Part shown: positions 11,792 to 37,735 of the stretch, piece by piece | How positions within the stretch are numbered: the stretch's first letter is position 1 | Layout of the letters: the number at the start of each line of letters is the position of its first letter | Made by a program: the position numbers and the translations under genes | Source: Actinomycetes bacterium | Lineage (GTDB): Bacteria; Actinomycetota; Acidimicrobiia; Acidimicrobiales; GCA-2861595 | Assembly (NCBI GenBank): GCA_023264975.1 | Contig: JAHFUS010000032.1 | Span: 1-43,575, forward strand | Reading direction: 5' to 3' | DNA: 43,575 nucleotides | Notes under the pieces: generated by a model | Database searches by the model: none | The model's input: only the letters and a program-made list of their open reading frames with translations | What the model was told of the DNA's origin: nothing

Positions 11792-11798
11792 TAAACGC

Positions 11799-13675: not shown

Positions 13676-13698
13676 CGGCGGTGGCCCGTACGGCGACG

Positions 13699-13935
13699 AT
13701 GGGGAAGGAGTGGCTTGGCGCGCCGGCTGCGGCCAGCCTCCTTGGTATCCGGCTGAAGACACTTTACGGCCTTATCAACTCAGGTCACGTGCCGGCGTAC
13801 AAGATCGGACGCCTGATCCGGCTGCGGAGGACGGAGGTCATGGCGTACGTCGAGCGCTGCCGGATCAGACCGGGCACCCTGGGCCACCTCTACCCGCCAG
13901 GGGACAAGGGGCCTCGCCGCGGCGTCGATTTGTAA
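13699..13935 (+). CDS. Small excisionase-type helix-turn-helix protein
   Basis: A 78-residue protein is almost entirely one winged HTH domain: WLGAPAAASLLGIRLKTLYG, then LINSGHVPAYKIGRLIRLRR and a helix TEVMAYVERCRI. This is the pattern of excisionase/MerR-type domains found in integrative-element control genes. ATG 13699 is chosen because it directly precedes the domain. GTG 13681 in the same frame would add six residues. It lies between the helicase gene and the dpd island and belongs, on context, to the mobile backbone, possibly as a recombination directionality factor. No integrase of that backbone is within the window. Confidence 0.65.
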   Translation: MGKEWLGAPAAASLLGIRLKTLYGLINSGHVPAYKIGRLIRLRRTEVMAYVERCRIRPGTLGHLYPPGDKGPRRGVDL

Positions 13936-14313: not shown

Positions 14314-15270
14314 GTGAAGACCACGACCCTACATATTGTCCTGAGTTGCACCAAGCGAAAGCGGATCGGTGACGCCTCCTACCCTCGCCTCAGGGAGGTC
14401 TTCACTGGCGATGTCGAGCAGAGAGCTGCGAGGTGGATCAGTCGGATCGACGGCGCCGACGCAAGCCGTCCCGCTCGCGATCTGTACGCCGGGGAGTACT
14501 GGCGGGCTGGGATGGGTTTGGCGGCGAGAGCAAGCCGGCTATGCCCATCGTCGACATGGGTGCTCTCCGCCGGCCTCGGGCTGATCAATCTGGACGACCA
14601 GATCCCTGCCTACGGCGCGACCTTCGCGAGCGGGCAGGAGGACTCCGTCGTCGTGAAGTCGGATGGCGCACCGGCTTCGGAGGTTCGTCGCCGCTGGTGG
14701 TCAGCCCTCGCCTCGTGGCAGGGCCCCGTCGGGCCCGGACGGCCGCGGCGGATCGCCGATCTCGCCGCCGACAGGGCGGCGAGCATCGTCGTCTGTGCGG
14801 GCCCTGACTACCTCGCGGCGATTAGGCCGGAACTCGTTGACACGTTGAATGTCCTCGGTGGTGAACGGCTCCTCTTGTTCGGATCTGGCGCACCCGAGAC
14901 TGGACTGGAGGGTGCGTGGGTGCGGGTACCGGGCCAACTCCGACTTCGCTTCGGTGGGTCCATGTCCTCGACCAGCGTTCGTGCCGCGTCGGCGGTCATC
15001 GACGAGATCGCGGAATCGGGCGTGCTCAGCGGTGATCAGGCACGGAGCCTGGTCGTTTCGTGGTGCGATGCCACGGCACCCCTACCTCGGCCCGAGCGAA
15101 AGAGGCTCTCGGACCTCGACGTCGCGCTGTGGATTGTCTCCGACTCGAAGGCCCACCCCGGCTCGGCCAACAAGTCAAGCTCCCTGAGGCGCTTTCGAGA
15201 CGACGGTCTCGCGTGCGAACAGGCGCGCTTCGGCCGTCTCTTCGACATAACTTCGACCAGGCGTCGATGA
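14314..15270 (+). CDS. dpdC: YaaA/DUF6884-like protein, candidate DpdC
   Basis: A 318-residue protein opens the dpd modification operon. Its N-terminal half has the YaaA/DUF6884-type pattern: HIVLSCTKRKR near the start, then ARDLYAGEYWRAG, then WVLSAGLGLINLDDQIPAYG. The C-terminal half has no recognised domain. In the Salmonella Montevideo cluster DpdC is needed to convert dPreQ0 in DNA to the amide dADG, and this is the only gene here that could fill that place, next to dpdB and dpdA. That identity is inferred from position and is not proven by a motif I know to be diagnostic of DpdC. The start is set at GTG 14314 just before the conserved strand; the open frame reaches back to 14257. Its TGA overlaps the next ATG (ATGA at 15267-15270), indicating translational coupling. 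Confidence 0.5.
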   Translation: MKTTTLHIVLSCTKRKRIGDASYPRLREVFTGDVEQRAARWISRIDGADASRPARDLYAGEYWRAGMGLAARASRLCPSSTWVLSAGLGLINLDDQIPAYGATFASGQEDSVVVKSDGAPASEVRRRWWSALASWQGPVGPGRPRRIADLAADRAASIVVCAGPDYLAAIRPELVDTLNVLGGERLLLFGSGAPETGLEGAWVRVPGQLRLRFGGSMSSTSVRAASAVIDEIAESGVLSGDQARSLVVSWCDATAPLPRPERKRLSDLDVALWIVSDSKAHPGSANKSSSLRRFRDDGLACEQARFGRLFDITSTRRR

Positions 15271-16382
15271 AGGTTCTCCGCCGTCGAGCCCTATGCATCG
15301 AGCAGACGAAGTCCGGGCCGCTTTATCTGTTGACGCTGCGGGCGGACGAGATCTTTGAGGTCGCCGAAGTTACACGGATCAACCGCTCTCGCTCGAACGA
15401 GTTGATCGGCTACCAACGCGCCGAGGTCCGCCAGCACGTCGGGGACATCCTTGAGTACCTCAACGGCGATGTGGTTCTTTTCCCAAACTCGTTGATCCTT
15501 GCACTAAGTCCGAATGTCCGGTTCCGGCGTAGTCGTGGTCCGGACAACCACGACGGACTGGCCCAAGCAGGCGTCCTTGAGATCCCGATCCCGTCGAGCG
15601 ATGGGCCTAAGGCGGCGTGGATTGTCGACGGGCAGCAGAGGGCGCTGGCGCTGTCGAGGGCCGAACGTCGTGATCTGCCGGTTCCGATCAGCGCCTTCGT
15701 CGCCGAGACGGTCGGCCAGCAACGCGACCAATTCCTCCGCATCAACAACACCAAGCCGCTCCCGCGCGGACTCGTCGCAGAGCTTCTGCCCGAGGTCTCA
15801 ATCCCCTTGCCGAGGGGCCTTGCAGCCAAACAGGTCCCCTCAGAGATCTGCGGCCTGCTCAACGATCAGTCCGACTCGCCGTTCCAGGGCCTCATCCGCC
15901 GGGCGTCCACACCGAGGGGCAGCGGGGCGGTCATCACCGACACCAGCGTCATCGATGTGCTCCGCGAGAGCATCTCATCGCCATCCGGATGCTTGTTTCC
16001 CTACCGGAACCTCGCGACGGGTGAGACCGACTTCGAGGCCATCTGGCGCATCGTCGTCACCTACTGGTCTGGCGTGCGCTCGGCGTTCCCCGAGGCATGG
16101 GGACGACCGCCGCAAGAGAGCCGCCTGATGCACGGGGTCGGGATCCGTGCGATGGGTCGTCTCATGGACAAGGTGATGGGCGCCGTTCACCCGACCGATC
16201 CCGACCTTGCCGGCCATGTTGAGCGAGCGATGGCCCGGATAGCGCCGGCGTGCCGCTGGACGAGCGGCACCTGGGACGAACTGTCGCTGCAGTGGAACGA
16301 CGTCGAGAACACCACCCGCAACCAGCGACTCCTCACGAACCTTCTTGTGCGGCTCTACTTCGGCGGGGGGGAGGCATCGTGA
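15267..16382 (+). CDS. dpdB: DGQHR-domain protein DpdB (first copy)
   Basis: A 371-residue member of the DGQHR/DndB-like family. The motif appears as IVDGQQR with D121 to R125, preceded by the conserved GYQRAEVRQHVGDILEYL segment and followed by NNTKPLPRGLVAELLP. DpdB works with DpdA to place preQ0 into DNA. In Salmonella both are needed, although DpdB is reported as dispensable in other clusters. Its exact reaction is not known to me; DGQHR proteins are often described as ParB-like nucleotide-binding proteins. The gene overlaps the preceding one by ATGA and the following dpdA by GTGA. It is clearly paralogous to the gene at 17637-18776: both share the NTKPLP, SPF-(Q/R)-G, S-R-L-x-HGVGI and LMD segments in the same order. 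Confidence 0.8.
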   Translation: MKVLRRRALCIEQTKSGPLYLLTLRADEIFEVAEVTRINRSRSNELIGYQRAEVRQHVGDILEYLNGDVVLFPNSLILALSPNVRFRRSRGPDNHDGLAQAGVLEIPIPSSDGPKAAWIVDGQQRALALSRAERRDLPVPISAFVAETVGQQRDQFLRINNTKPLPRGLVAELLPEVSIPLPRGLAAKQVPSEICGLLNDQSDSPFQGLIRRASTPRGSGAVITDTSVIDVLRESISSPSGCLFPYRNLATGETDFEAIWRIVVTYWSGVRSAFPEAWGRPPQESRLMHGVGIRAMGRLMDKVMGAVHPTDPDLAGHVERAMARIAPACRWTSGTWDELSLQWNDVENTTRNQRLLTNLLVRLYFGGGEAS

Positions 16383-17644
16383 GGTTCTTCTTTCCTGACA
16401 GTCAGGACCAGGTCGACCCTAGCTTTGATTTCAAGACTGAGCAACGGTCGATCTATCGGGTACGGCAAAGGGACGATCGCTACGCTCACGAGCTGATCCA
16501 ACCACCACCGTACGACGGGCTTCTCGTGTCCAAGCCGATTGTCGACGGGTTGCCGGGCTCCAGCGGGAAATACACCGGAGCCCAGCGCAACCGCCTTTAC
16601 CGAGAGGGCGCGCACCGCTTCTTCAGACTCGCGAATGGCTCCTCGACGCTCCCGGTGATGGGAGATTGCGGTGCCTTCACCTATGTACGTGAGCACGAAC
16701 CCCTCTACACGGTTGACGAGGTCATTGACTTCTACGACGGCTGCCAGTTCGACATCGGCATCGCCCCTGACCACGTCGTGTTCGGCTACGACGCCGCACT
16801 CGACAAGGCTCCGCCTCAGGACGTACCCGAGGACTGGCGGTTCCGCCAGCAACTGACGGTCTCACTTGCGAGCGACCTCCTCGCCGCTCACAGAAACCGC
16901 AAGTGCACGTTCGAACCCGTTGCCGTCGCACACGGATGGAGTCCGGAATCGTATGCGGTGTCGGTTCAGCAACTACAGGAGATCGGCTATCGGCGTATCG
17001 CCCTGGGCGGAATGGTGCCGTTGAAGACGCCGGACATCCTCGACAGCCTGAAGGCTGTTCGGCGGGTCTTGACCCCCGGCACCGAACTCCACCTGTTGGG
17101 TGTCACCCGCACCGCGCATGTCCAGGAGTTCGCCCGGTACGGCGTCACGAGCTTCGACAGCACGTCACCGTTCATGCAGGCATTCAAGGACGACAAGGAC
17201 AACTACTACGCCCTCGACCGCACCTACGTCGCCATTCGAGTTCCCCAAGTCGACGGCAACACGAAGCTGCGGTCGATGATCACCGCCGGAGCCGTTGACC
17301 AACAGAAGGCACGCCGACTCGAACGGACCTGTCTCGAGAGGCTGCGCAAGTTCGACAACGAGCGTTGTACCGCATCGGACGTGATCGACGCCGTGTGCAG
17401 CTACAGCGCGCTCCTTGGAGACACGAAGGATAGAAGCGCGGTCTACGCGGAGACACTTGAAGCCAGACCGTGGAGCTCCTGCACCTGCCAGGTCTGCGCC
17501 ACCATCGGCGTTGAGGTGATCATCTTCCGGGGGGCGGACCGCAACCGCCGCCGAGGTTTCCACAACCTCGCAGTGTTCGCGAGTCGGCTGAGTCGAGACC
17601 TCAATGCAGCGCCTGCTCTGAATACGGGAGCCACGCGTGCCTAG
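16379..17644 (+). CDS. dpdA: DpdA, TGT-like DNA guanine/preQ0 transglycosylase
   Basis: This is the key enzyme of 7-deazaguanine DNA modification. It exchanges guanine in DNA for preQ0 and is related to tRNA-guanine transglycosylase (TGT). The protein is 421 aa. D96 in MGDCGAFTYV corresponds to the TGT DSGGF base-binding aspartate. D260 in SFDSTSPFMQAF corresponds to the TGT nucleophile (FDxxxP). C368, C370, C373 (SCTCQVC) and H395 form the CxCxxC...H zinc site of the TGT fold. FDIGIAPDHV (125-131) is a further DpdA-like segment. GTG 16379 overlaps the dpdB stop; the open frame reaching back to 16250 runs within dpdB. The gene ends inside the start of the second dpdB-like gene (8-base overlap). 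All expected catalytic residues are present, so it should be active. Confidence 0.92.
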   Translation: MRFFFPDSQDQVDPSFDFKTEQRSIYRVRQRDDRYAHELIQPPPYDGLLVSKPIVDGLPGSSGKYTGAQRNRLYREGAHRFFRLANGSSTLPVMGDCGAFTYVREHEPLYTVDEVIDFYDGCQFDIGIAPDHVVFGYDAALDKAPPQDVPEDWRFRQQLTVSLASDLLAAHRNRKCTFEPVAVAHGWSPESYAVSVQQLQEIGYRRIALGGMVPLKTPDILDSLKAVRRVLTPGTELHLLGVTRTAHVQEFARYGVTSFDSTSPFMQAFKDDKDNYYALDRTYVAIRVPQVDGNTKLRSMITAGAVDQQKARRLERTCLERLRKFDNERCTASDVIDAVCSYSALLGDTKDRSAVYAETLEARPWSSCTCQVCATIGVEVIIFRGADRNRRRGFHNLAVFASRLSRDLNAAPALNTGATRA

Positions 17645-18776
17645 AAGGAAGCGGTACGAACTCCGTCTCCCAGCGCTGGAGATTCGCCAGGGCCGCCACC
17701 GGTGTCTGTACACCTTCGCTGTGGACGCGAAGCAACTGCCGTTGTTCACGACGATCAGCCGCGTGCGACGGGAAGACCGACAGATCGAGGGCTACCAGCG
17801 GCCCGAGGTGCTAGCGCATGTCAGTGCCATCCGGTCATACATCGAGTCGGCCGAGCCAATGATTCCGAACGCGATCGTGGTGGCCTTCGACACTCGGGTC
17901 CGATTCGAGCCCGGACCAGTCCAGACCGATGTCTCCTATGTGACCCCCGGCGTCCTTGTCATTCCCGTGGACGAGGGCCTTCCCGACGAGGACAAGCCAG
18001 GGTGGATCGTCGATGGGCAGCAGCGGGCCGCGGCCGTGCGGGAAGCGGACGTCCGCAGCTTCCCGCTCTGCGTGACGGCATTCATCACGGCGAGTCAGGG
18101 AGAGCAGCGAGCACAGTTCATCCTCGTGAACTCCACGAAGCCGCTCCCCAAGGGCCTCATTTACGAACTGCTGCCGACGACAGAGGGCATGCTGCCGCCG
18201 GCCTTGATGCGGAAGCGGTTCCCGGCGCTCCTCGTCGAACGTCTCAACTATGACGAGGACTCGCCGTTCCGGGGGAGGATCCACACGCCAACCACCCCGG
18301 ACGGCATCGTGAAAGACAACTCGGTTCTCCGCATGCTTGAAAACAGCTTGAGCGACGGCTGCCTTTATCACTACCGAGAGGCCGACACTGGAACAGGCGA
18401 CATCGAAGAGATGCTTGTCGTCCTCAAGCCCTTCTGGCGCGCAGTGAAGAAGGTGTTCGAGGAGGCGTGGGACCAGCCGCCGCGCCGCTCCAGACTCACG
18501 CACGGCGTTGGTATCGCCAGCGTCGGCTATCTCATGGACGCCATCACCGATGCGTACGTCGCGCGGGGGACCTGGCCGGAGGAGGCCGAATACGTCGCCG
18601 AACTCGAGTTGCTCAGTGAGGTGTGTGCGTGGACCTCGGGCTTCTGGCAGTTCGGCAGCGGATCGCTTCGCCGATGGAACGAACTTCAGAACACACCGAA
18701 GGACATCCAACTCCTGACCGGACATCTTCTGAGGGAATACAAGCGACTTCGCCAGTCGGCGCGTCGGGAGCGATAG
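17637..18776 (+). CDS. Second DpdB-like DGQHR-domain protein
   Basis: A 379-residue paralogue of the first DpdB. It has IVDGQQR at D126-R130, GYQRPEVLAHVSAIRSYI upstream, NSTKPLPKGLIYELLP downstream, and RLTHGVGIASVGYLMDAI near the end. GTG 17637 is preceded by GGGAG at 17626-17630 and overlaps the dpdA stop by 8 bases. The two copies flank dpdA directly, which suggests an old tandem duplication and perhaps a heteromeric DpdA-DpdB complex. Only one DpdB is needed in the studied Salmonella system. Which copy is the functional counterpart cannot be told from the sequence; both keep the motif. Confidence 0.8.
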   Translation: MPRRKRYELRLPALEIRQGRHRCLYTFAVDAKQLPLFTTISRVRREDRQIEGYQRPEVLAHVSAIRSYIESAEPMIPNAIVVAFDTRVRFEPGPVQTDVSYVTPGVLVIPVDEGLPDEDKPGWIVDGQQRAAAVREADVRSFPLCVTAFITASQGEQRAQFILVNSTKPLPKGLIYELLPTTEGMLPPALMRKRFPALLVERLNYDEDSPFRGRIHTPTTPDGIVKDNSVLRMLENSLSDGCLYHYREADTGTGDIEEMLVVLKPFWRAVKKVFEEAWDQPPRRSRLTHGVGIASVGYLMDAITDAYVARGTWPEEAEYVAELELLSEVCAWTSGFWQFGSGSLRRWNELQNTPKDIQLLTGHLLREYKRLRQSARRER

Positions 18777-18779
18777 GTC

Positions 18780-19571
18780 GTGGTCTATGAAACAAATGGG
18801 CAACATCTCGCGACGTTTCTACGCGACCATCACCTTGGCGGCAGTGGCGCCGCGTGGACCCAGATGGCGATCGCCCTAGTTCCCACCGGCCGGGCTGAAA
18901 TTTGGGTCGATGCAGTACGCGAGATGACAGCGCTGCACCTCACGCGCCGACTCGTATGCGCTGGCGTCGTGATCGTCGGTCGGCGTGGGGAGTTCGACGC
19001 GGTCGCAGAACGCGCCGTTCAACAACTGGTGCTCGACACAATGATCGTCGACTACTTCGTAGTTGGTGACCTAATGCGTCGACTCGAGCCAGCCATCCGC
19101 TCGGCTCGACGGACCATCTCGCCGACTGTTCGAAGGGAATTGGAAGGGTTCACTCGCCGGGAGATGCCGTACTGCTACCTCTGCGGCACCGATCTGACAT
19201 TCGACGATGCTGGACCCACAAGTTTCACGATCGATCACGTGTGGCCGCGCGCGTATGGCGGTGATTCGGAACCCGAGAATTTGCTCCCGGCGTGCCGTTC
19301 ATGCAACAACCGGAAGGGGCTGACGCCGTCGTGGTCCCTGTATCCCGTACAGGCGCTGGTGGCCGGCTTCGAGTTGGAGCACTCCGACATCATGGAGATG
19401 CCGAAGGAAATGCGGTTCGCAGTGCAGTCGCGTGCTGCCGCCGCACATGCTGCTGCTACGAGCGTGAGTCTAAAGGAGGCATTCGTGAACCTCGGTCGTC
19501 CGGACCTACCCACGGTCATAGACATATCGGTGAGTGTCGACGTCTTTAACCTTGACTTCGCTGCGAAATGA
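18780..19571 (+). CDS. HNH endonuclease embedded in the dpd modification operon
   Basis: A 263-residue protein with a complete HNH (beta-beta-alpha metal) nuclease domain. C132 and C135 (CYLC) pair with C172 and C175 (CRSC) to bind structural zinc. D152-H153 in TIDHVWPRAYGG holds the catalytic histidine, and N167 and N177 fit the remaining HNH positions. The first 125 residues have no recognised fold and may confer specificity. GTG 18780 lies three bases after the preceding stop, with GGGAG at 18766-18770. HNH nucleases are not among the eleven named dpd genes I know. Location suggests that it cuts DNA by reference to the 7-deazaguanine mark or acts with the next DGQHR gene. A homing-type intruder is less likely given the tight gene spacing. 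Confidence 0.82.
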   Translation: MVYETNGQHLATFLRDHHLGGSGAAWTQMAIALVPTGRAEIWVDAVREMTALHLTRRLVCAGVVIVGRRGEFDAVAERAVQQLVLDTMIVDYFVVGDLMRRLEPAIRSARRTISPTVRRELEGFTRREMPYCYLCGTDLTFDDAGPTSFTIDHVWPRAYGGDSEPENLLPACRSCNNRKGLTPSWSLYPVQALVAGFELEHSDIMEMPKEMRFAVQSRAAAAHAAATSVSLKEAFVNLGRPDLPTVIDISVSVDVFNLDFAAK

Positions 19572-19580
19572 GGAGCGATC

Positions 19581-20687
19581 GTGTTTGAGTACCCAGCTGT
19601 CTTTAGTCGGCAGCGTGAGCACCCGGACGCGCCCCTGTTCGCTTGCTTTATCGCCCCAGTCGGCGATGTCCATCGCTGGACCACCATCGACCGATTGTCG
19701 ACGGTTGGCGGAGGTCATCAGCGCGTCAAGAACCCGTCGAAGGTCAAGGCGATCGTTCGTTTCCTCGAACTCGATGAGCGCAACACCATTCCAACAGCGT
19801 TGACCGTTGCTCTACGCCTTCCCGGCTTCGTGCCGCCGGAGCTCAACTCATGCACGTCCCTGCGGATCCCCGAGAGCGACCCCCCGGTCGGAATCGTGAT
19901 CGACGGCCAGCATCGTCTCTTCGGGATGGCCGACTACCGCGATGACCTACCAGTGAACGTGGTCGCGCTAATCAACCCGCTGGACGAGGAGATTGCATTC
20001 CAGTTCCTCGTCATCAATCAAAAGGTTACCAAGGTGCCGACCGATCACCTGACCCTGCTTACCTTGCAGTACTCCGAGAAGGCTCTCGACGAACGACTGC
20101 GGTCGGCGCGCATGGTGCTACGACGCCATGCAACCCTTGTCGGCGTTGTAGACTCATCGCCCGACTCGCCTTTCGTCCGCTCCGTGATCTGGCCCACGGA
20201 GGATGATGACGGAGTTGGGCGCACCCCGCTCGTTCTGCCGGCCGCGGTCGAGCAGGCTCTAGCCGCTATCGCGCAGAAGAATCTGCCCGACCTCCGCGAC
20301 GACGACGCTCTTCTCGAGTTCTTCTTCACGATGTGGTCCACCGTCAAGCAGAAGTGGCCCGACTTGTGGCATGCCGGCTCGTCCCTTCTCAGCAAGGTCG
20401 GCGTCGTCACGCTGACGACCTTCATTATCGAGGACTTGGCTCCCTTGGCTGATCGGGACATGGTCAACCTTGCGGAGCCAGAGGACGCAGCGAAGGCGGT
20501 GAGTGACATCCTCGACAACCTGGCGCCGGACTTCTGGAGGACCGAGTGGACCGCGAAGAGCTTGGATACGTCCGGGGGTCGCCAGATGGTCGTCGACTCA
20601 CTCATCCAGATTCGTCGCAACGTTCGGCGGGGCGAGTCGTGGCACACAGACGTGTCACTCGTGGCAACCGGCGAGCCGAATGCCTAG
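19581..20687 (+). CDS. Third DGQHR/DndB-like protein, divergent from the two DpdB copies
   Basis: A 368-residue protein with the motif IDGQHR at D108-R112, followed by FLVINQKVTKVPTDHLTLL, the INQK pattern common in DndB-like DGQHR proteins. It lacks the NTKPLP and HGVGI blocks that link the two DpdB copies, so it is a separate branch and not a recent duplicate. GTG 19581 has AGGAG at 19571-19575, five bases upstream, and follows the HNH stop by nine bases. The pairing of an HNH nuclease with a DGQHR partner in one transcription unit suggests that they act together. Its target and activity are unknown. It is the last gene before the 70-base gap leading to the preQ0 genes. Confidence 0.75.
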   Translation: MFEYPAVFSRQREHPDAPLFACFIAPVGDVHRWTTIDRLSTVGGGHQRVKNPSKVKAIVRFLELDERNTIPTALTVALRLPGFVPPELNSCTSLRIPESDPPVGIVIDGQHRLFGMADYRDDLPVNVVALINPLDEEIAFQFLVINQKVTKVPTDHLTLLTLQYSEKALDERLRSARMVLRRHATLVGVVDSSPDSPFVRSVIWPTEDDDGVGRTPLVLPAAVEQALAAIAQKNLPDLRDDDALLEFFFTMWSTVKQKWPDLWHAGSSLLSKVGVVTLTTFIIEDLAPLADRDMVNLAEPEDAAKAVSDILDNLAPDFWRTEWTAKSLDTSGGRQMVVDSLIQIRRNVRRGESWHTDVSLVATGEPNA

Positions 20688-20757: not shown

Positions 20758-20970
20758 ATGCCGAAGTTGAACTCGTCAAGCAAGAGAGTGTCCACGGCAG
20801 TCCGGCTTCCCAAGGAGCTCCACGCCGAGCTCCAGCGACAGGCCTATGAGCGCGATGTCTCGGTGAACTTCCTCGTGACTCGAGCAGTCGACCATTACCT
20901 GCGAGAGTTGGGTCCGGCGGAGCCGCTTACTCTCCACCGCCGCGATCAGGCAGAAGGAGCGAGCGCATGA
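20758..20970 (+). CDS. Ribbon-helix-helix (Arc/CopG-type) small DNA-binding protein
   Basis: A 70-residue protein with the RHH pattern [20 protein letters not shown], then [20 protein letters not shown]: a short strand with alternating residues followed by two helices. Such proteins bind DNA as dimers and act as repressors or antitoxins. Its stop overlaps the queC start (ATGA at 20967-20970), so it is translated with the preQ0 genes. No toxin gene is adjacent, which favours a regulator. The dyad at 20692-20714 is a plausible site for autoregulation and control of precursor supply. Start ATG 20758 is chosen because the longer frame upstream runs inside the previous gene. Confidence 0.7.
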
Positions 20971-21668
20971 CGAAACGAGCGGTCGTGCTGCTCAGCGGGG
21001 GCCTCGACTCCGCGACTGTGGCCGCCATCGCCCAGCGGGACGGCTTCGACACCTACGCGCTTAGCTTTGATTACGGGCAGCGGCACTCCGCCGAACTCGA
21101 TGCGGCGCGCGCGGTGGCTGTGGTTCGGGGAGTGCAGGACCACAAGATCGTTCCAATCGACCTTCGCGCCTTCGGCGGATCGGCGCTGACGGACGACATC
21201 GCAGTGCCCAAGGACAGGGACGTCGTGGAAATGAGCGATGGCATTCCGGTGACCTACGTCCCAGCGCGAAACACAATCTTCCTGTCCTTCGCGCTCGCCT
21301 GGGCCGAGGTGCTTGGCTCCTCAGACATCTTCATCGGAGTGAATGCGCTCGACTACTCCGGCTACCCCGACTGCAGGCCCGAGTATATCGATGCCTTCCA
21401 AACCATGGCTCGGCTGGCGACGAAGGCGGGCGTCGAAGGCGCGACTCTCCGCATCCACGCGCCGCTGGTTGCACTCACGAAAGCAGAGATCATCAGCCTT
21501 GGAACAGTGCTGGGCGTCGATTACGCACACACTGTCAGCTGTTACGACCCTAACGCTTCAGGCGCAGCGTGCGCACACTGCGACTCGTGCCTCCTGCGCC
21601 GGAGGGGTTTTGCCGAGGCTGGTCTCGCCGATCCGACCCGCTACCAGGCTACGTCTGGCGCAGCATGA
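20967..21668 (+). CDS. queC: QueC, 7-cyano-7-deazaguanine (preQ0) synthase
   Basis: This enzyme makes preQ0 from 7-carboxy-7-deazaguanine with ammonia and ATP, the last step of preQ0 synthesis. The protein is 233 aa. The PP-loop SGGLDS is at residues 10-15, and the four zinc cysteines C192, C202, C205 and C208 are in SCYDPN and ACAHCDSCL. It is a normal length for QueC and all key residues are present. It overlaps the RHH gene upstream and queE downstream, both by ATGA. In this context the preQ0 is most likely destined for DNA through DpdA, although it could also feed tRNA queuosine or archaeosine-like pathways if those exist elsewhere. Confidence 0.95.
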
Positions 21669-22300
21669 CCTACCTGGTGAAGGAGATCCTCTTCACCCTC
21701 CAGGGCGAGGGGTTCAATACGGGGACGCCCGCCGTGTTCTGTCGTTTCACGGGGTGCAACCTGTGGACCGGGCGTGAGGAGCATCGCTCGATCGCTGTCT
21801 GTCAGTTTTGCGATACAGAGTTCGTAGGGACAGACGGCACAGGTGGCGGCAAGTTCGGCTCGGCTCTTGACCTGGCTGCCGCCGTTGCGGGCGCGTGGCC
21901 GTCGAGTGGTGCGGGCGAGCCCCTGGTGGTCTGCACCGGCGGCGAGCCCTTGCTCCAGCTCGATGAGGTGCTCGTCAACGCCCTTCACGACCATGGGTTC
22001 CGGGTCGCTATCGAGACGAATGGCACTTGCCCGGCGCCGGCCGGCATCGACTGGATCTGCGTTAGTCCCAAGGCCGGCGCCGACCTGGTGCTGAAGTCAG
22101 GCGACGAACTGAAACTCGTCTACCCCCAGCCGGGGCTCGATCCAGCTGATCTCGTCCGACTGGACTTCGGCCACCGATTCTTGCAGCCGATGGACGGTCC
22201 GGACGTCGCGAAGAACACCACCTTGGCCGTCGCCTACTGCCTAGAGAACCCGGTCTGGCGACTCAGCCTCCAGACGCACAAGTTCCTGGGTATTCCCTAG
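21665..22300 (+). CDS. queE: QueE, 7-carboxy-7-deazaguanine synthase (radical SAM)
   Basis: This radical SAM enzyme converts 6-carboxy-5,6,7,8-tetrahydropterin to 7-carboxy-7-deazaguanine. The protein is 211 aa. The iron-sulfur cysteines are C31, C46 and C49, giving the QueE-specific spacing C-x14-C-x2-C instead of the usual Cx3Cx2C. The N-terminus reads [10 protein letters not shown] as in the family, followed by CTGGEPLLQ and IETNGT. ATG 21665 overlaps the queC stop; the open frame extends upstream to 21569 inside queC. The last base of its stop is the first base of the queD GTG start. Confidence 0.95.
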
Positions 22301-22659
22301 TGGAGATATTCAAGGAGTTCACGTTTGAGGCGGCCCACAGGCTTCCCCACGTCCCGCACGACCACAAGTGCGCCCGTCTTCATGGGCACTCGTACCAAGT
22401 CGCGGTCCACGTCGACGGTGACGTCGACGAGGAGGCGGGCTGGGTTATGGACTTTGCCGACATCACCTGCGCGATGGGGCCCGTTCTGGCGCAACTGGAC
22501 CACTACTACCTCAATGAAGTGGACGGCCTTGAGAATCCAACCAGTGAAGTCGTCGCGAGATGGATCTGGGCTCGCGTGAGCCGCACCCTGCCGGGCCTCA
22601 GCCAGGTAGTTGTGCGTGAGACATGTACCTCGGGGTGCGCCTACAGAGGTGATGTCTGA
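22300..22659 (+). CDS. queD: QueD, 6-carboxy-5,6,7,8-tetrahydropterin synthase
   Basis: A 119-residue enzyme of the PTPS/QueD fold, which converts dihydroneopterin triphosphate to 6-carboxytetrahydropterin. Zinc ligands are H13 (EAAHRL) and H28 and H30 (RLHGHSY). C24 (HKCARLHGH) is the catalytic cysteine of QueD proteins. The C-terminal VRETCTSG holds the pterin-anchoring glutamate. GTG 22300 overlaps the queE stop by one base, and its TGA overlaps the folE2 ATG by one base (TGATG). The length is typical. Confidence 0.94.
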   Translation: MEIFKEFTFEAAHRLPHVPHDHKCARLHGHSYQVAVHVDGDVDEEAGWVMDFADITCAMGPVLAQLDHYYLNEVDGLENPTSEVVARWIWARVSRTLPGLSQVVVRETCTSGCAYRGDV

Positions 22660-23483
22660 TGGGCTCGGCCGAGCTCGCCGATATGCAGTCGTCGGAGTCG
22701 CCGCATCCGCTCGCCCTTGACTCCGTCGGCATCTCGGGACTGCGACATCCAGTCGTCGTCCTCGACCGACTGCGAGCGAAACAGGAGACGGTCGCGTCGT
22801 TGACGATGGCGGTCGACTTGCCGGCGTCACAACGTGGCGCGCACCTCAGCAGGTTCCTTGAGGTTCTCTCGGACGCCGAGGGGGAACTCACCGTTCGCAC
22901 CGCCCAAGGCCTGCTTACCGCCATCACCAATCAGCTCGGCGGCAGCAGGGCGACCATCGATGCAGAGTTCCCGTACTTCATTGAGAAGCGCGCGCCAGTG
23001 AGCGGCGCAAGAGGACTGCTCGATGTGGCGTGTCGCTTCACGTTTCGAGGCGGTGCAGACGCGATGGACTTTGTCCTCACCGTGATCGTCCCGGTTACGA
23101 CCCTGTGCCCCTGCAGTCGCGCCGTGAGCGACTACGGCGCCCACAATCAACGCTGCGCCGTGACAATCTCAGTGCGCACCGCGCGGACGGCCTCGCCCAC
23201 CGACGACGAGATCGTGTGGATTGAGGAACTCGTAGATCTCGCTGAGCGTCACGCGTCGGCGCCGATCTACCCGGTACTCAAGCGTCCTGACGAGCGGTTT
23301 GTGACCATGCAGGCATACGACAACCCGGCCTTTGTCGAGGACGTCGTCCGCGGCGTCGCCGCAGACTTGGCCGCCGACCACCGCGTGACGGAGTTCTTCG
23401 TCGAGGCTTCGAGCGACGAGAGCATCCACAACCACCGCGCTTTCGCCCGCGTTGGGCACCCATTGATTCAGTGCTCTAACTAA
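22659..23483 (+). CDS. folE2: FolE2, GTP cyclohydrolase I type B
   Basis: This enzyme opens GTP to dihydroneopterin triphosphate, the first step towards preQ0. The protein is 274 aa. The signature VTTLCPCSRAVSDYGAHNQR carries the metal-binding cysteine (C150), and the C-terminal part has RFVTMQAYDNPAFVEDVVR with a conserved glutamate, both as in the FolE2/GCYH-IB family. It belongs to the prokaryote-specific IB type, which tolerates metals other than zinc. Having its own cyclohydrolase makes the preQ0 supply independent of host folate control. It is the last gene of the plus-strand operon; its TAA (23481-23483) abuts the stop of the convergent dpdD with no spacer. Confidence 0.94.
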   Translation: MGSAELADMQSSESPHPLALDSVGISGLRHPVVVLDRLRAKQETVASLTMAVDLPASQRGAHLSRFLEVLSDAEGELTVRTAQGLLTAITNQLGGSRATIDAEFPYFIEKRAPVSGARGLLDVACRFTFRGGADAMDFVLTVIVPVTTLCPCSRAVSDYGAHNQRCAVTISVRTARTASPTDDEIVWIEELVDLAERHASAPIYPVLKRPDERFVTMQAYDNPAFVEDVVRGVAADLAADHRVTEFFVEASSDESIHNHRAFARVGHPLIQCSN

Positions 23484-25631
23484 CTAAGTTGCTGGGTCTC
23501 CTTGGGCCCACGCGAGGAGCGCTCTGACGAGTGCAGTCGAGCCGCGGCCGTGCACAAGCAGGAGACGCGTCGGGTCCGAACTCGCCATACCAATGGCTTG
23601 AGTCGCAGCGTGCTTTGCGTGACTGGTCTGCACCAGCATTACATCAGCGCCATGCACTAGCGCCCTTAGCGCGTCGCTGTTTACGCGACCCGACGAGGTT
23701 CGGACCTCGACGGTCGGGAACAAGGCCCTTATCCGGTCAGCAGCAACTCGGGCGGCGCCCTCGAGTAGCGAGTAGATCCCTACCGAGTGGAACTCCTGGA
23801 CAACTCGTTGAGCGTGAGCCGCCCCGCCAGTGGGTGATGTCGTGAACGACACGCCGACGTCGGCAAACACGAAATGCAGGACGGCGCTGTCGGCCGGCTC
23901 GAGACGGTCAATCCAGGCAGTGGCGATGCCGGAGGCGTCAGCGACGAGCGCGCCCCGACGAGACATGTCGGGGCTTGAGAAAAGCAGGAAGAGGTCGAGG
24001 CACTGCGCCAACCAGGCTGCGTCCCTGGGCCCGAGCAGCGGGAGTTGGCGGGAGACGGCGTCGAGCAGTTCTACGTACTCCTGCGACGTGCACCCTACGA
24101 CTAGCACCTCCTCCAGCAGCGCCAGCGAAACCTGACGCTCGATCCGCCCCGGTTCGCTCGAGAGAAGGATGTCGAAGATTGTCGCAGCGAGCCCAACCCC
24201 AGATGGAGGGAGACCGTCCTCGACAAGCCATTCGACAAAAACCGGAAGTCCATTGCGCACACGCCCCCGACGAGCATCGTTGAGGGCGTCGAGCAGTTCT
24301 TCGGCGAGCAGACCGGCATCCTGATCGAGGGCCTCGGGCGTACGGTGCCATTGCGTGGCCCACTCAGCGAGCAGGTCGGGTCGGTCCGCCCATTCGCCTC
24401 GGAGCCAATCCAACCAGCTCGTCGGCACCCGGGCCTCAGAGGTTCGTGCAAGCAGTTGCTCGTAGAAGGCGCGCTCGACAGAACTCGCTATCAGCTGCTC
24501 GTGATCCGCAGCGGGCAGCGCGTCGAGCATGGCGAGTACGCGCACGGCCGACGCGCTGTCGCCGATATTGACCGCCGCTGCGAGCGCTACCGATGCCGCT
24601 GACCGGGTTGGACCTTCCGACTCAGCGGACAGGAGGGCTTCCCAGTAGTCGCCATCGTGATACAGCCCGAGCGCCGTCGGAGACCGCTGCGGCGCAGCCG
24701 GGACGACGCGGCTTGGGATTGCTGCGATGACCACCGGGTCGTCGGGGTGGAGTTCGGCGACCTGGGTAAGCAGCCACAACCGAGGTTCGAGAGCGAGTAG
24801 TTCTCGCAGTACTAGGCAGCGCGCCGCGGGCAGAGTCGTGACCTGCTCGCGGTGTGTGACGAGACCTGGCCATGCATCTTCGAGCGCGTCGGCGACCTGA
24901 ACCCAGTCGTTCGAGATACCCGCTTCACGTACCGGCTCAACGAGGAGGGCGTTCGCAGCAGCCGCAAGGTGCTCCGTCACCGCCTGGGGACGAGCGAGTA
25001 AGGAGATCCCGCGCAGCGACGGATCGTCCCGCAGTTCCTCGGGCTGCCCGAGGGCACTCAGCAGTTCCACGCGAAGGAAGCGGACGTTGGTCGAGTTCAA
25101 TAACGCCCGGGCCTTGATCTCATCGAGCGCGGCCTCTGCCACTGACCGATCCCCAGCGAGAACAGCTTCATAGAACTGCCGTAAAACCCGCCCGACTGGG
25201 CGAGGCTGGTCCACGCCGCGGTCGGGCGCGAGTGACCAGGTATCGGTGAGCGAGGCGACATTGCTTCGCGCGTCGGCTTGCCATCCGTCGACGACATCGA
25301 TCCGCACGACCACGCCGCTCGGGACGAGGTCCAGCGCCGCTTGATCCACCGGGTCGGACGAGCCGCGGATATCGCGAGCGCGCACGGAGATTGGCGGTCC
25401 GAGCCAGCAACGGAGCTCCTCTCTCAGGAGCCGGGCTTCGCGGTCCGAAGGAGCCAGGCCGTACCAGCGAGTCCCACCACTAACGCGGGCCGGTAGGACG
25501 GTTCGCACGCCGGAGGGCTGCAGGCGAGCGGTCAGGAGCCCTACGAGATCCTGCATCGCGCCCTGCAGCCCGGACGGGTCAACCTCGTTGGGAGGCGAGA
25601 AGAAGCTCGACGCCGGCGAAGACGCCGTCAC
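23484..25631 (-). CDS. dpdD: DpdD-like protein, last gene of the dpd restriction operon
   Basis: A 715-residue, mostly helical protein without a catalytic motif that I can name. The N-terminal 170 residues look like a mixed alpha/beta domain. The middle (about 170-600) has Ala/Leu-rich helical repeats resembling a TPR-like solenoid. The last 110 residues form a separate alpha/beta domain ending in a Gly-rich loop (LLVHGRGSTALVRAL). The DpdD name rests on its length and its place after dpdK, matching the gene set in which dpdD is needed for the restriction phenotype. Its ATG (25631) overlaps the dpdK stop (ATGA). It ends directly against folE2 on the other strand. Confidence 0.6.
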   Translation of the reverse strand: MTASSPASSFFSPPNEVDPSGLQGAMQDLVGLLTARLQPSGVRTVLPARVSGGTRWYGLAPSDREARLLREELRCWLGPPISVRARDIRGSSDPVDQAALDLVPSGVVVRIDVVDGWQADARSNVASLTDTWSLAPDRGVDQPRPVGRVLRQFYEAVLAGDRSVAEAALDEIKARALLNSTNVRFLRVELLSALGQPEELRDDPSLRGISLLARPQAVTEHLAAAANALLVEPVREAGISNDWVQVADALEDAWPGLVTHREQVTTLPAARCLVLRELLALEPRLWLLTQVAELHPDDPVVIAAIPSRVVPAAPQRSPTALGLYHDGDYWEALLSAESEGPTRSAASVALAAAVNIGDSASAVRVLAMLDALPAADHEQLIASSVERAFYEQLLARTSEARVPTSWLDWLRGEWADRPDLLAEWATQWHRTPEALDQDAGLLAEELLDALNDARRGRVRNGLPVFVEWLVEDGLPPSGVGLAATIFDILLSSEPGRIERQVSLALLEEVLVVGCTSQEYVELLDAVSRQLPLLGPRDAAWLAQCLDLFLLFSSPDMSRRGALVADASGIATAWIDRLEPADSAVLHFVFADVGVSFTTSPTGGAAHAQRVVQEFHSVGIYSLLEGAARVAADRIRALFPTVEVRTSSGRVNSDALRALVHGADVMLVQTSHAKHAATQAIGMASSDPTRLLLVHGRGSTALVRALLAWAQGDPAT

Positions 25632-26155
25632 GGTTGACCCCAGCGATCCTCGTACGCGTGGCGAGCTCGAGCGACGGAATCGTCGTCATCGGTCAGCAGG
25701 ATCGACTCCTCCAGACGTCGCAAGCCGTTGTAGGTGAGGTTCATTGATCCGCTCAGAAGCAAGTGGCGCGTGAGCACGCCCTTCTCGTGCAAGTCCTCAG
25801 CGAAACGGTATAAATGCCGGTCGCCGACCCCAGCCTCGCGGGCCCGCTCTGCTAGTTGCTCGGTGAACGTTCGGTTGTGGTCGTCGGGACGGCACGCGAT
25901 CACAACTGTGCCACCGCGCTGGAGTTGCGCTAGGAGTGTCTCGGCGAGGCGAATCGGACGACGCGGTACATCTGGAACGAGTCCGGTGAACCGAGCGGCG
26001 CGGTTGTCGACAACGACCACGTCGGATATCCAAGGTGTCACAATCCAGAGCGGTGTGCTCGGTGCCAGGAGTTCGGCAATGAAGAGAGCCTGGAGCGCGT
26101 CGGCGAGCTCCTCTCTTGAGGCGAAGGCCGTGGTTCGCAGATTCCGAGTCCTCAC
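25628..26155 (-). CDS. dpdK: DpdK, phospholipase D-like protein
   Basis: A 175-residue protein with one PLD-type motif: H123-E-K125-GVLTRH, followed by LLSGSMNLTYNGLRR with S135-G-S137 and N139, as in HKD-family proteins. The usual aspartate of HxKxxxxD is R130 here, so the motif is incomplete, as in several dimeric PLD-like nucleases. TPLWIVTPWISD (34-45) is the first core strand, typical for the family. DpdK is one of the components needed for restriction in Salmonella and could supply nuclease activity. That is not certain given the changed motif. It overlaps dpdJ and dpdD by four bases each. Confidence 0.75.
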   Translation of the reverse strand: MRTRNLRTTAFASREELADALQALFIAELLAPSTPLWIVTPWISDVVVVDNRAARFTGLVPDVPRRPIRLAETLLAQLQRGGTVVIACRPDDHNRTFTEQLAERAREAGVGDRHLYRFAEDLHEKGVLTRHLLLSGSMNLTYNGLRRLEESILLTDDDDSVARARHAYEDRWGQP

Positions 26156-29100
26156 TGTCGAGCCTCGCGGAGTTCGACGAACAGATCTAGTCCTGCGCGT
26201 GAGCGGCTCACGCCGACGACGCGCGGGTGGAACTCGAGGACATCGACGCTCGTGGGTTCAGTGAGGAGATCACGGATGGCGGCGGATGCGGACATCTCGT
26301 TGTCGGCCCTGATCGTCGCGCCTCCCTCCACACGAAGCACCGCGTCGACCTCTCGTCGCCAGTGCATTCGAGAGGCTTCAACGACGGGGCCGCGCGGGAC
26401 AGTGACGGCTTCGAACAGAAGGCGCTCCGATGGTTGGAAGTCAAGGTACGGCGAGTAGCTTCGGAGTGCGGCGGCTCGAAGCCGATTGCCGCGCGGCCAT
26501 AGCAGACCGACGATTTGGCCGATCTCCAAGCCAGGCTGAGCGGCGTGGCCGCCGATCGCTGCTTGGAGCTGTCGGCGCACATCGGCGTCGGACGCTGCGA
26601 CGTGTGCGAACACGCGCAGCTCAACCTCGATCCCAAGAGACGCCTCTAGTGCATCCCAACGCCCTAACAGGCTCGCGATGAGCCTCTCTAGGCCACGGTC
26701 ACTGCCCGAGCGGATGATCCGAGTGGCGAGGGCGGACACGACCGACTGGTCTCCATCCAGCCCCAGATGGAATAGTGCAGCACGCAGGTCGCGCCACGCT
26801 TCCGTAAGGCCGGATAGGTCGACGGCGGTCCGAATGCGAGTCGCTGGTTGGGCGATCGCTACATCGTCCGCGGTCTCGAGAAAGTGCCGCAGGTTGGAGT
26901 CGACCCGTTCACCATCGCCGGGGCCAAGAGCGGCCGTGACGAGTGCCCAGAAGGCACGCGGATCCTCGACATACCGGTCGACAAGCGCCTCGACGATGCC
27001 GACTCCCCCCGGTTGGTCTTCGCAGATGTGCACGAGGCCGAGGGTCGGGCGGGCTTCGGATCCAATGTTGAGGTCGCAGCGGAGGTCCGAGGCGTCGACC
27101 TCAGGGCACGAGGACTGAATCGCGTCGATCACCGCGGCCGCAAGCGTCGTCAAGTAGCGCCCTTGCAGCCATGGAAGCCATTGGTCGTCGGGCTCTGCCC
27201 ATAGGGCCGTGGCGGCGAGGCGAAGCTCCGGAACAACACTTGCCACCCCGACCGCGTCTGCCAGGTCGCCGACGAGTCCTGGGTCGGGGGCCCCTCCCGG
27301 CGACGCCGCCGTCCCGAGTGGAGTTGCGCCGAACACCTCTCGCGCAGCGTCGACGAGGTCAACCCTAAGGTCGTCGTCGGTCGAGGAGTCAAGAACTTCC
27401 CGAAGCGAACGTCCATTGCTCTTGTTGACAAGCACCGAGAGCAGGACCTGGTGAAGCCACTCTCTCGTGAATGCAGACGGAACACTTGCAGATAGGGAGG
27501 GGCTGTTCCGCACCACATACTCCATCCGGGCGACGCGTAGGGCGCGTAGTAAGGGCGGGCTGGTCGGTACGCTCCCCGGCAGTCTCACCGACAGCTGCAG
27601 CGCGTCGACGTCCATGGCGAAACCGACAGCGGCCGGCGCCCCCGCGAGGCTGACGGTGTGCTGTGTGATCGGCGGTTCGGTTGTGGAATTCCGCTCGACA
27701 TCGAACGTGTTCGCATATCGCCAGACCGTTTGCGGGCACCGGTGTCGGTGGGTGAGGACTTGGAGCTCCTCAACTAGTTCCGACCATGCCGAACCAACTG
27801 GCAGATCCAAAGGAAGGGGCACGCCGTCGTGGTCGAACGCGACACGCCAGGTCCATCGCCCGTACGAGGAGTCCGAGACGGCACCGCCAGGTGTAGCGAG
27901 GCGGAGGCATGTGGGCTGCACGAGTCGTCCGGCCGTTGCGGCGGGCGGCGGGTCGAGCTCGATGTATGTCTCGCAGAAGTCCTCGATCGCCAGCGCGGGA
28001 TCGTGCGACGCAGGGGGCGGAACCCAGAGCCGCTCTCGGCGCCCTCCGAGCGCATAGCGGTAGCTCACCCGACCGGGCGCAAACTGGCGCATCGCCTGCG
28101 AAACGGGTTCGGCCTCATCCTCCCCCGGTCGACTTGGGACAACGAGACGAATCTCTGGTGTTTGGAGCGACGAGAACAGCGACGAGGGCAAAAACTCACT
28201 CAGTGGCGCTGACCACTCGAAATCGCTGGGCAGCCTCGTAGATGCCGCGGCCTCGAATCGACGAACTAGTGCTGGGATAACGGCAGTGATGAGTCCTCGG
28301 GGATGGTCCCAGAGGACCGCCCGCAGGTCCTCGTCGTGTAGCGAGAGGCTTCGTCGCAATTGCGATGAGAGGCGGTCGATGCCGCTGGCAGTCAGGGTGT
28401 CGCGGGCGACAGCAAGTAGCTGAGCAGCGACTTGGCGCTGGCGGCTCCGATCGTCCCAGGGCCGCTCGATGAGGGTCAGGACTGGTGCACCGGAGCTCAG
28501 TCGCCCGAGGTAGTCCAGGAGCCACCAGGTCGCCTGCATCTTCAGGATGACCCGATTCCGCAGCGGGAGGTGCGTTGGTTGCACGACCGGCGCGAAGAGC
28601 CCTTCGTACGATTGGAAGGCCAGGCGGTCTCGTCCATAGTCGGAGAGGACGACGATCGTCCAGGGCCTCATGGCCGGATCGCGACCAGCGCGCCCGCGCC
28701 GCTGAAGGAACTGCGCGGCTTCCCGCGGTGCTTTGTGCTGGACAACGGCACCCACGTTCGGGTCGTCGAAGCCGACTTCGAGGGACGCGGTAGCCACGAC
28801 GACATCTGCGTCGGCGTCGACGCCGGCATCCCGCGAAGTCGTGCGCGAAACACGCACTGGTCGTTGGAGAGTGCCAATTTGTTCGGCGAATCCCCAAAGC
28901 TGGCCGGCGTCCTCGCGCGCTCGGACGTCGGGCCCGGATGATCCCCGTAGCGTCGCGAGACTTCCATTCGGCTTCCTGTTGACGCCCCCGGGCTTCCATC
29001 CCTCCGCGTCCTCGAGTTGGGAATGGAGCCGATTGGTGATGTCGAGATCGTCGGTGAACACGAAGACCCGCGAACCGAACGCTCCGTGGCTCGGCTGGCT

Positions 29101-30498
29101 CGGCCGTTGGTCGAGCATCCGTCGAAGCAGCATCGATGTCTGGATCGTCGTCGAGAGCAGGGATGTCTGGGAAGCCGGGTCGCCACGAAGTGCCAGGAAG
29201 TACTCGCGGCCGATCTCGGTCATCTCGTGAGGCTCGGGCGCGACGACGTTGATGCTCGGTGTGCCAACGCCGGTGAGGTCCGAGAAGAAGCCGGCGGGGT
29301 CAGACAAGGTGGCCGATAACCCAACGATGTGCGGAGGTGTGGCGACCTCCGAACGCCATCGTCGAAGAAGGTTGGCCACTTGCGCGCCGTGCGTCCCCGC
29401 GTAGGTATGGACCTCGTCCAGCAAGAGGTACTCAGGTGAGCGGGTGGCGTCTCCGACCAGCAACCGTCGCATCGCGGCCGAGCCGAGAAGGCGGTTGAGC
29501 ATTTCGGTCGTCGTGAAGAGGACGGCCGGGGCTGAGGCACGGAGACCGTTACGCGTGAAGCGGAGACGATCGCCGGTCAGTCGGCCTCCGCATTGCTCAC
29601 ATACCAACTCGTCGGCGTCTCCGGCCGATATCGGCCAGATATAGCCGCCCTCGCACCCGGCCTCGAGACAGTCCACGATCGGGCAGCGCAGGCCGTTGCC
29701 GTGCTGCTTCCAGCCTCGACCCCGGACCGCCAGTGCGTCGCGGCGGTCGCGAGGCACGGCTCCGTAGAGGACTCCGACTGTGGGAGCGGCTTGACCGGCG
29801 GCGGCGAGCGTTCCACAAGTGAGCAGCAAGGTTCGCAACTGATCTCGTAGCAGTTCGATCCTCGGATAGATCGCGATGACCCGTGGAGTTCCGGGAGGAC
29901 GGTCGGTCGCCATGAGCTGCGTGAGTACCGGTAGGTAGAAGGCGAGGGTCTTGCCGGAACCCGTTCCTGCTGTGATGACGGTGCCCCTCTGTCCGAGGTG
30001 GCGTTGCGCGACCCGTGTGAATGACCGAGCTTGAAACGCAGACACCGATTTTCCCGCGAGGACCGCGCGCATCGCGCCGTCATGCCGATCAGTCCAGTCC
30101 GAAGCCAGTACGGCTCTTGCGATCGCGGCTAGCTCGGCGGCCGAGGTGTTCCGACGTGGTACGACTCGTGGCTGACTGAGGAATCGTGCGTCCGACACCA
30201 ACGCCGGGGCGGTCCGCCAGTCCCGTCCATGGAACCACTGGCGCAGCGAAGTCGCTAGGCGAACTGTTTCGGCCATGCGGCTTCGATACCGCTCCTCGGC
30301 GAGTCCCTTGGCAACGATGAGGCCGCGGTCAATGAGGGCATCGAGCATCTCGTCGGTGTCCTCATCCGGCGCGACCGTCCGCACGATGTCCTCGAGTTCT
30401 GCCTCGGTCAGCGTTCCATTCGTGACGCCCCAGGTGAGCAGCGGGAGTTCGCGCTTCTCGACCTCGTTCAGCGCTCGTCGAATGTCATCCTCGGTCAC
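26152..30498 (-). CDS. dpdJ: DpdJ, large DEAD/DEAH-box helicase with DUF1998-like C-terminus
   Basis: A 1448-residue superfamily 2 helicase. Walker A is AGTGSGKT (177-184), the DEAH box reads DEVH (361-364) and motif III SATL (395-398). Motif VI is QRRGRAGRD near residue 610. A cysteine cluster between the first two motifs (C272, C277, C282, C300, C303) probably binds zinc. The region near residues 1150-1170 (HICEDQPGGVGIVEAL) resembles the DUF1998 segment that follows such helicases in defence systems. The C-terminal 250 residues are specific to this group. In Salmonella dpdJ was reported as possibly involved in restriction. It is translationally coupled to dpdI and dpdK by four-base overlaps. 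Confidence 0.8.
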   Translation of the reverse strand: MTEDDIRRALNEVEKRELPLLTWGVTNGTLTEAELEDIVRTVAPDEDTDEMLDALIDRGLIVAKGLAEERYRSRMAETVRLATSLRQWFHGRDWRTAPALVSDARFLSQPRVVPRRNTSAAELAAIARAVLASDWTDRHDGAMRAVLAGKSVSAFQARSFTRVAQRHLGQRGTVITAGTGSGKTLAFYLPVLTQLMATDRPPGTPRVIAIYPRIELLRDQLRTLLLTCGTLAAAGQAAPTVGVLYGAVPRDRRDALAVRGRGWKQHGNGLRCPIVDCLEAGCEGGYIWPISAGDADELVCEQCGGRLTGDRLRFTRNGLRASAPAVLFTTTEMLNRLLGSAAMRRLLVGDATRSPEYLLLDEVHTYAGTHGAQVANLLRRWRSEVATPPHIVGLSATLSDPAGFFSDLTGVGTPSINVVAPEPHEMTEIGREYFLALRGDPASQTSLLSTTIQTSMLLRRMLDQRPSQPSHGAFGSRVFVFTDDLDITNRLHSQLEDAEGWKPGGVNRKPNGSLATLRGSSGPDVRAREDAGQLWGFAEQIGTLQRPVRVSRTTSRDAGVDADADVVVATASLEVGFDDPNVGAVVQHKAPREAAQFLQRRGRAGRDPAMRPWTIVVLSDYGRDRLAFQSYEGLFAPVVQPTHLPLRNRVILKMQATWWLLDYLGRLSSGAPVLTLIERPWDDRSRQRQVAAQLLAVARDTLTASGIDRLSSQLRRSLSLHDEDLRAVLWDHPRGLITAVIPALVRRFEAAASTRLPSDFEWSAPLSEFLPSSLFSSLQTPEIRLVVPSRPGEDEAEPVSQAMRQFAPGRVSYRYALGGRRERLWVPPPASHDPALAIEDFCETYIELDPPPAATAGRLVQPTCLRLATPGGAVSDSSYGRWTWRVAFDHDGVPLPLDLPVGSAWSELVEELQVLTHRHRCPQTVWRYANTFDVERNSTTEPPITQHTVSLAGAPAAVGFAMDVDALQLSVRLPGSVPTSPPLLRALRVARMEYVVRNSPSLSASVPSAFTREWLHQVLLSVLVNKSNGRSLREVLDSSTDDDLRVDLVDAAREVFGATPLGTAASPGGAPDPGLVGDLADAVGVASVVPELRLAATALWAEPDDQWLPWLQGRYLTTLAAAVIDAIQSSCPEVDASDLRCDLNIGSEARPTLGLVHICEDQPGGVGIVEALVDRYVEDPRAFWALVTAALGPGDGERVDSNLRHFLETADDVAIAQPATRIRTAVDLSGLTEAWRDLRAALFHLGLDGDQSVVSALATRIIRSGSDRGLERLIASLLGRWDALEASLGIEVELRVFAHVAASDADVRRQLQAAIGGHAAQPGLEIGQIVGLLWPRGNRLRAAALRSYSPYLDFQPSERLLFEAVTVPRGPVVEASRMHWRREVDAVLRVEGGATIRADNEMSASAAIRDLLTEPTSVDVLEFHPRVVGVSRSRAGLDLFVELREARQ

Positions 30499-31232
30499 CG
30501 ACGCCGCACCACGAGGCTCTCATCGATGCCGGCGCAGCGGAGCGCGGCGAGTAGTTCGTCGGTGACGTCCGACAGCGGAAGGCCACCCTCGGCCGCTGCT
30601 CGGCGGAGCGCCTCACGAATCTCGGGAGTGAGAGCAGCACGCTCGGCGTCGAGCGCTTCGAGCGCGGTGCGCATCTCATTTGCCAACGTCGTGATGGCGC
30701 GCAACCAGGCGTCGACATCTACGCCGCCAAGCGTGTTCTGGAGATCGGCGGCGTTCGCAACAGGGTCCATCCCCATCGCAGCCCGCAGCTTCGACGCTCG
30801 GGCCCGTGCGACGAGGATCTGAGTCGCATTCCCGACCAGGTGTTCCGTCTGGATACGATCGAGGAGAGGTCGGTATGCCTCGAACCGGTCTCTCCAGCGG
30901 GCCGTCACCCAGCGGGCTGTTCGTTCTCGCTCGGTCTTCGCGACCTCGGTCAATGTGGACGCCGGATCGTGTTGGAAGGCCGCCGACCCGTGGCGCGAGA
31001 GGCCGGCACGGAAGGCCGCAACAGCCTTCGATACCCCCTTCAGGTCGAGACCGGGTCGATCGGTTATCTCGGCGCTTGAGCGGAAGGCCGCAGCGCCTGC
31101 GAGGTACTCGGTCGCCCGATCAAGGCTCAAGACTAGTTGAGCGCCTCGTGCCAACAACCCAAGGCTGGTGTCGGCCGACTGTGCTGCCTCGAGCTTGAGT
31201 TGAAGATCCACCGACCGGTCGTACAGGGTCAC
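30495..31232 (-). CDS. dpdI: Helical protein in the DpdI position
   Basis: A 245-residue, highly helical Ala/Leu/Arg-rich protein with no catalytic motif visible. It lies between dpdH and dpdJ, overlapping each by four bases, which is the position of dpdI in the E-F-G-H-I-J-K-D order. I assign the symbol on synteny only. It may be a scaffold linking the ATPase DpdH to the helicase DpdJ; that is speculation from the layout. DpdI is among the genes reported as needed for the restriction phenotype. Confidence 0.5.
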   Translation of the reverse strand: MTLYDRSVDLQLKLEAAQSADTSLGLLARGAQLVLSLDRATEYLAGAAAFRSSAEITDRPGLDLKGVSKAVAAFRAGLSRHGSAAFQHDPASTLTEVAKTERERTARWVTARWRDRFEAYRPLLDRIQTEHLVGNATQILVARARASKLRAAMGMDPVANAADLQNTLGGVDVDAWLRAITTLANEMRTALEALDAERAALTPEIREALRRAAAEGGLPLSDVTDELLAALRCAGIDESLVVRRR

Positions 31233-35154: not shown

Positions 35155-35166
35155 GTCATCAGCCTC

Positions 35167-37731: not shown

Positions 37732-37735
37732 CGGG

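Follow-up and report, generated by a model that had tools for sequence, protein, structure and literature searches.

The locus described here raises the question of why dpdA, which encodes a TGT-like DNA transglycosylase, should be bracketed by two genes that both read as the NTPase DpdB, and of what a second such protein could do for one DpdA. Salmonella DpdA and DpdB are reportedly sufficient for the formation of dPreQ0, and DpdC is said to produce dADG. The window, that is, the whole 43,575-nucleotide stretch of DNA analyzed from an Actinomycetes bacterium of the class Acidimicrobiia, contains a complete dpd island with modification genes in the order dpdC-B1-A-B2, preQ0 genes, and a restriction operon. 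The modification operon begins on the forward strand with dpdC (14314..15270; DUF6884 family; PADLOC DpdC E = 3.6e-59), followed by the upstream-type DpdB gene (dpdB-U or B1, 15267..16382), dpdA (16379..17644; NF041059 DpdA 574.6 bits against a cut-off of 200), and the downstream-type DpdB gene (dpdB-D or B2, 17637..18776). On the same strand lie an accessory HNH endonuclease gene outside the B-A-B unit (18780..19571; Pfam HNH E = 5.8e-9), a gene for a third DGQHR-family protein, B3 (19581..20687), and, by Pfam, queC, a queE-like radical SAM gene, queD, and folE2 for preQ0 supply (20967..23483). The reverse strand carries the restriction operon (23484..40873; PADLOC), consisting of dpdD, K, J, a gene for a 245-aa protein, H, G, F, and E. 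PADLOC thereby recognized dpdA, B, C, D, E, F, G, H, J, and K in the window, and gave no match for the 245-aa protein at the dpdI position (30495-31232, reverse strand). A small excisionase-like helix-turn-helix protein (Pfam HTH_17) is encoded directly before the dpd operon (13636-13935, forward strand), which fits a mobile island.

The sequence-only reading had placed two DpdB paralogues at 15267-16382 and 17637-18776, and these coordinates proved correct. B1 (371 aa) and B2 (379 aa) were 38% identical across 369 columns (E = 1e-78), and the motifs GYQR..HV, VDGQQR, NTKPLP/STKPLP, ELLP, HGVGI, and LMD occurred in identical order in both, as had been described. Against the NCBIfam DpdB equivalog NF041060, whose curated cut-off is 300 bits, B1 and B2 scored 406.4 and 488.6 bits, respectively, and their PADLOC DpdB matches reached E-values of 2e-134 and 8e-149. 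Both proteins belong to the same superfamily as DndB, SspE, and BrxU (DGQHR/ParB-Srx family) and matched Pfam DndB (PF14072) above its cut-off; they lay far below the cut-off of the DndB-associated model DGQHR_dnd_1 (TIGR04172; 56 and 52 bits for B1 and B2 versus 450) and far above that for DpdB. No dnd genes were recognized among the window ORFs scanned. A search of the whole genome with the DpdB model gave matches at three places only, namely B1, B2, and B3.

The third of these, B3, which had not appeared in the earlier reading, scored 64.3 bits with NF041060, below the DpdB cut-off, and formed a separate clade, and is thus regarded here as a distant DndB/DGQHR-family protein and not as a DpdB. 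Together with the neighboring HNH nuclease it forms a two-gene cassette (18780-20687 in the window) that recurs near dpd genes in several groups, for example at L101 5175-7086 and L108 4213-6133, and further in L009, L013, L025, L026, L079, L080, L082, and L094. On a plasmid of Pseudomonas aeruginosa, the same cassette also adjoins a phosphorothioation operon (dndBCDE), which makes it one accessory common to two chemically different DNA-modification systems.

As the sequence-only reading had noted, dpdA adjoins and overlaps both DpdB genes, by 4 bases with B1 (GTGA, 16379-16382) and by 8 bases with B2 (17637-17644); the dpdC/B1 junction also consists of a 4-base overlap (ATGA, 15267-15270). 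Among 59 U genes, 53 overlapped the start of dpdA, the stop codon lying over the start codon by 4 bases in 46 and by 1 base in 7, and the overlap at the dpdA/D junction was less regular. The regularity at the U/dpdA junction suggests that U is made together with DpdA and probably assembles with it.

To place the arrangement, 80 dpdA loci were fetched with a DpdA alignment from one-genome-per-species contigs covering about a dozen phyla; these were the best-scoring 80 of 142 relatives, so that the sample leans towards the DpdA of the window. Within these 80, a DpdB gene lay immediately on both sides of dpdA in 54 loci and on the downstream side only in 26 as fetched, and not a single locus had an upstream DpdB without a downstream one. 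Three of the 26 (L021, L038, and L057) end just 5' of dpdA at a contig boundary, with a fragment of U visible at the edge in L021, and thus about 23 of these best 80 of 142 appear truly to have a single DpdB. The two-DpdB hosts comprised Actinomycetota, Myxococcota, Planctomycetota, Acidobacteriota, Hydrogenedentota, and alpha-, beta-, and gammaproteobacteria. The same gene order, with a DpdB annotation on both copies, was found on annotated plasmids of Agrobacterium, Bradyrhizobium, and Skermanella, and an Enterobacter plasmid has a single DpdB on the downstream side. Few species of the window's own class carry the DpdB family (3 of 395 above the cut-off), and two of these three species, including that of the window, have both copies. 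The two-DpdB arrangement is thus widespread across bacterial phyla and no local oddity. Additional DpdB genes were also encountered. A third, D-side DpdB stands on the opposite strand directly before dpdC in two Pseudomonas loci (L067 6716-7822 and L082 6732-7790), and orphan DpdB genes with no dpdA nearby are present on plasmids of Euzebya (L010 12010-13155), Nonomuraea (L012 11989-13095), and Variovorax (L016 7995-9092), the last with a DUF6884 (DpdC-like) gene after it and a type I-E CRISPR locus alongside.

In a quick tree of 164 rows, all 59 upstream copies fell on one side of a single branch (SH-aLRT 88), and in a more careful tree of 70 rows the U clade, separate from every downstream or single copy, received support of 100/100 and was recovered in 100% of bootstraps. 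The window's B1 grouped with the upstream copy of L022, and its B2 with the downstream and single copies of Acidimicrobiia; neither copy fell outside DpdB, so that the refuting outcome named by the sequence-only reading, a copy placed outside DpdB, did not occur. Together with the NF041060 scores and the motifs, the tree thus bore out its claim that two distinct DpdB paralogues flank dpdA. Since the upstream copies form a single clade tied to position, DpdB-U and DpdB-D are anciently separated paralogues. From locus to locus, U copies were on average 54% identical and D copies 50%, and the U and D of one locus shared 28-42% identity. A recent tandem duplication was ruled out by the trees, in which the U copies of all these phyla group together in a single clade. 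In both trees, moreover, the U side and the D side divide into the same two locus groups, suggesting that the duplication is probably older than that split. The distances of U and D were correlated (0.94 over 56 loci), a value from which relatedness was not removed and which is partly expected from shared inheritance. When B3-like proteins were used to root the tree, their long branch landed inside the Proteobacterial D group; the alternative tree, in which downstream and single copies form one clade against U and the outgroup, was not rejected (p-AU 0.144), and is favored here because the U and D splits mirror each other.

Conservation was assessed over 59 U rows and 84 downstream or single rows. 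The NTPase motif DGQQR/DGQHR was present in 59 of 59 and 83 of 84 rows, respectively, the remaining row missing that region, and G-x-Q-R, H, P-N, DGQQR, Q-F, N, E-L, R-L-x-H, and W varied little or not at all in either set. Each type has invariant residues of its own in addition: R90, G91, W118, S204, R212, and C329 in U (B1 numbering), and Y68, F84, G122, N204, and T219 in D (B2 numbering). The dN/dS ratios were about 0.02-0.08 for U, DpdA, and D in most pairs with unsaturated dS, and both U and D are thus under strong purifying selection. A dead second copy was ruled out by the invariant motif residues of U together with the low dN/dS. Such long separate conservation indicates that U and D probably have different roles.

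AlphaFold models of B1 and B2, built from input that left out the plasmid-record rows, had pLDDT values of 80.7 and 89.4, with residues 162-186 of B1 poorly predicted. In both models the N-terminal half was ParB/Srx-like and the C-terminal half helical. The best matches of the N-terminal halves to ParB/Srx had Z = 6.5 over 92 residues (rmsd 3.8) for B1 and Z = 7.7 over 94 residues (rmsd 2.7) for B2; ParB/Srx chains took the top ranks among the structure matches of both proteins, and since all Z-scores were below 8, the assignment to this fold is a moderate one. A sequence search of the PDB with B2 alone found no relatives, and a D-type profile gave two DUF262 matches (E = 0.03-0.3).

Traces of a lost U gene were found immediately before dpdA in three D-only loci. 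In Novacetimonas (L089) the C-terminal third of U is left, and in two Acidimicrobiia loci (L023 and L026) 30-35 residues of its tail, each remnant scoring above all 200 shuffles; the latter two are close relatives, and their remnants may reflect a single event. When 19 single-DpdB genomes were searched in full, a U at another site came to light only in that of L023, and relocation of U was thereby ruled out in all the others. The exception, the MAG SB0668_bin_28, contains a two-DpdB dpd system (L022) in addition to the one-DpdB system. By their placement in the tree, the single-DpdB systems, those of Enterobacterales included, keep the D type, and on the rooting that unites downstream and single copies the Enterobacterales systems would have lost U. 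Because U can be lost, the obligate heteromeric complex suggested as one option by the sequence-only reading is too strong a term for the system as a whole: D-only loci exist, three of them with a U remnant, and all but one of the 19 genomes searched had no U elsewhere, and U is therefore not essential to every DpdA. Changes in DpdA that accompany loss of U, which could hint at an interface, were seen at just four positions in at least two U-less groups, none of them convincing. In Nannocystis pusilla (L045, about 11435-12527) the single DpdB seems to be split, with a stop within the first part, and the adjacent dpdA is open throughout.

These observations lead us to favor, as somewhat the more probable account, that DpdB-U and DpdB-D are two non-equivalent ParB/Srx-type NTPase subunits of one DpdA machine, with D as its core and U as a tuning or targeting subunit. 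Since D occurs alone and U alone was never seen, D is the likely core partner of DpdA and would support its exchange of guanine for preQ0 in DNA, as the one DpdB of Salmonella reportedly does. U would join DpdA during the synthesis of the latter and take its place in a heteromer with DpdA and D, in which the loading, opening, or choice of DNA would be altered, so that U may modify loading, targeting, or turnover. DpdC would then hydrolyse dPreQ0 to dADG; a scheme resembling the one for Salmonella has been summarized (PMC12839542). Fusions of dpdA with dpdB, which could serve as evidence of contact, were not seen among the loci.

The main rival to this account, to which we assign a real but minor likelihood, is that D alone serves DpdA and U acts as a DndB-like, ATP-sensing regulator or brake, by which modification would be limited or the operon repressed. 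DndB itself has been described as an ATP-modulated negative regulator (PMC10853773 and PMC4507180), B1 and B2 both exceed the Pfam DndB cut-off, and U is the dispensable copy, having been lost with retention of D in at least three loci. On the other hand, U is a DpdB by the curated score and retains the motif residues that it has in common with D, and its place within the operon and, in most loci, its translational coupling to dpdA are more what one would expect of a stoichiometric subunit than of a repressor. It appears unlikely that U and D each enter a DpdA complex of their own and that the two complexes differ in the strand, sequence context, or DNA state on which they act: their distinct invariant residues and apparently intact NTPase motifs would suit such a division, but independent complexes should at times survive singly either way, and U was never found without D in the sample. 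A recent or redundant duplication raising gene dosage, as two same-motif copies in one operon might suggest, is highly improbable in light of the single U clade across phyla, the low U-D identity within loci, and the type-specific invariants.

Returning to the DpdA-U-D machine, a broader proposal, which we regard as speculative and put forward tentatively, is that the ancestral bacterial Dpd machine was a complex of three parts in which DpdA was joined by two non-equivalent ParB-like NTPases, and which might for example have formed an asymmetric nucleotide-gated clamp on DNA offering one strand to the transglycosylase, and that the single-DpdB Salmonella system is a reduced derivative. The dpd island of Salmonella Montevideo (dpdA-K) resembles that of the window in having DpdA, DpdB, DpdC, preQ0 supply, and a restriction operon of the dpdD-K type, with a D-type DpdB after dpdA; the window differs by the second, anciently diverged DpdB between dpdC and dpdA. 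In the searched set Salmonella was represented by Enterobacterales stand-ins (L011, L051-L056, and L074). The contrast with Salmonella drawn by the sequence-only reading therefore held as to the smaller number of DpdB proteins but not as to direction, in that the Salmonella type, judged by these stand-ins, keeps the D member of a widespread two-DpdB arrangement.

Extra dpdB copies have already been counted in print. The available part of the GATOR-GC report (PMC11888242) lists 801 additional copies of dpdB, more than of any other gene, among 2,335 unique islands, a count presented there with no positions, copy tree, or distinction of two types. In the literature searched on dpdB, dPreQ0, dpdC, and tgtA5, no description of two DpdB types tied to gene position was found, and the priority of this distinction is not certain. 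A single annotation name conceals two paralogue groups. Both types being intact and one repeatedly lost, they provide a natural experiment on the role of the NTPase, and mechanisms derived from Salmonella may describe a reduced form of the system.
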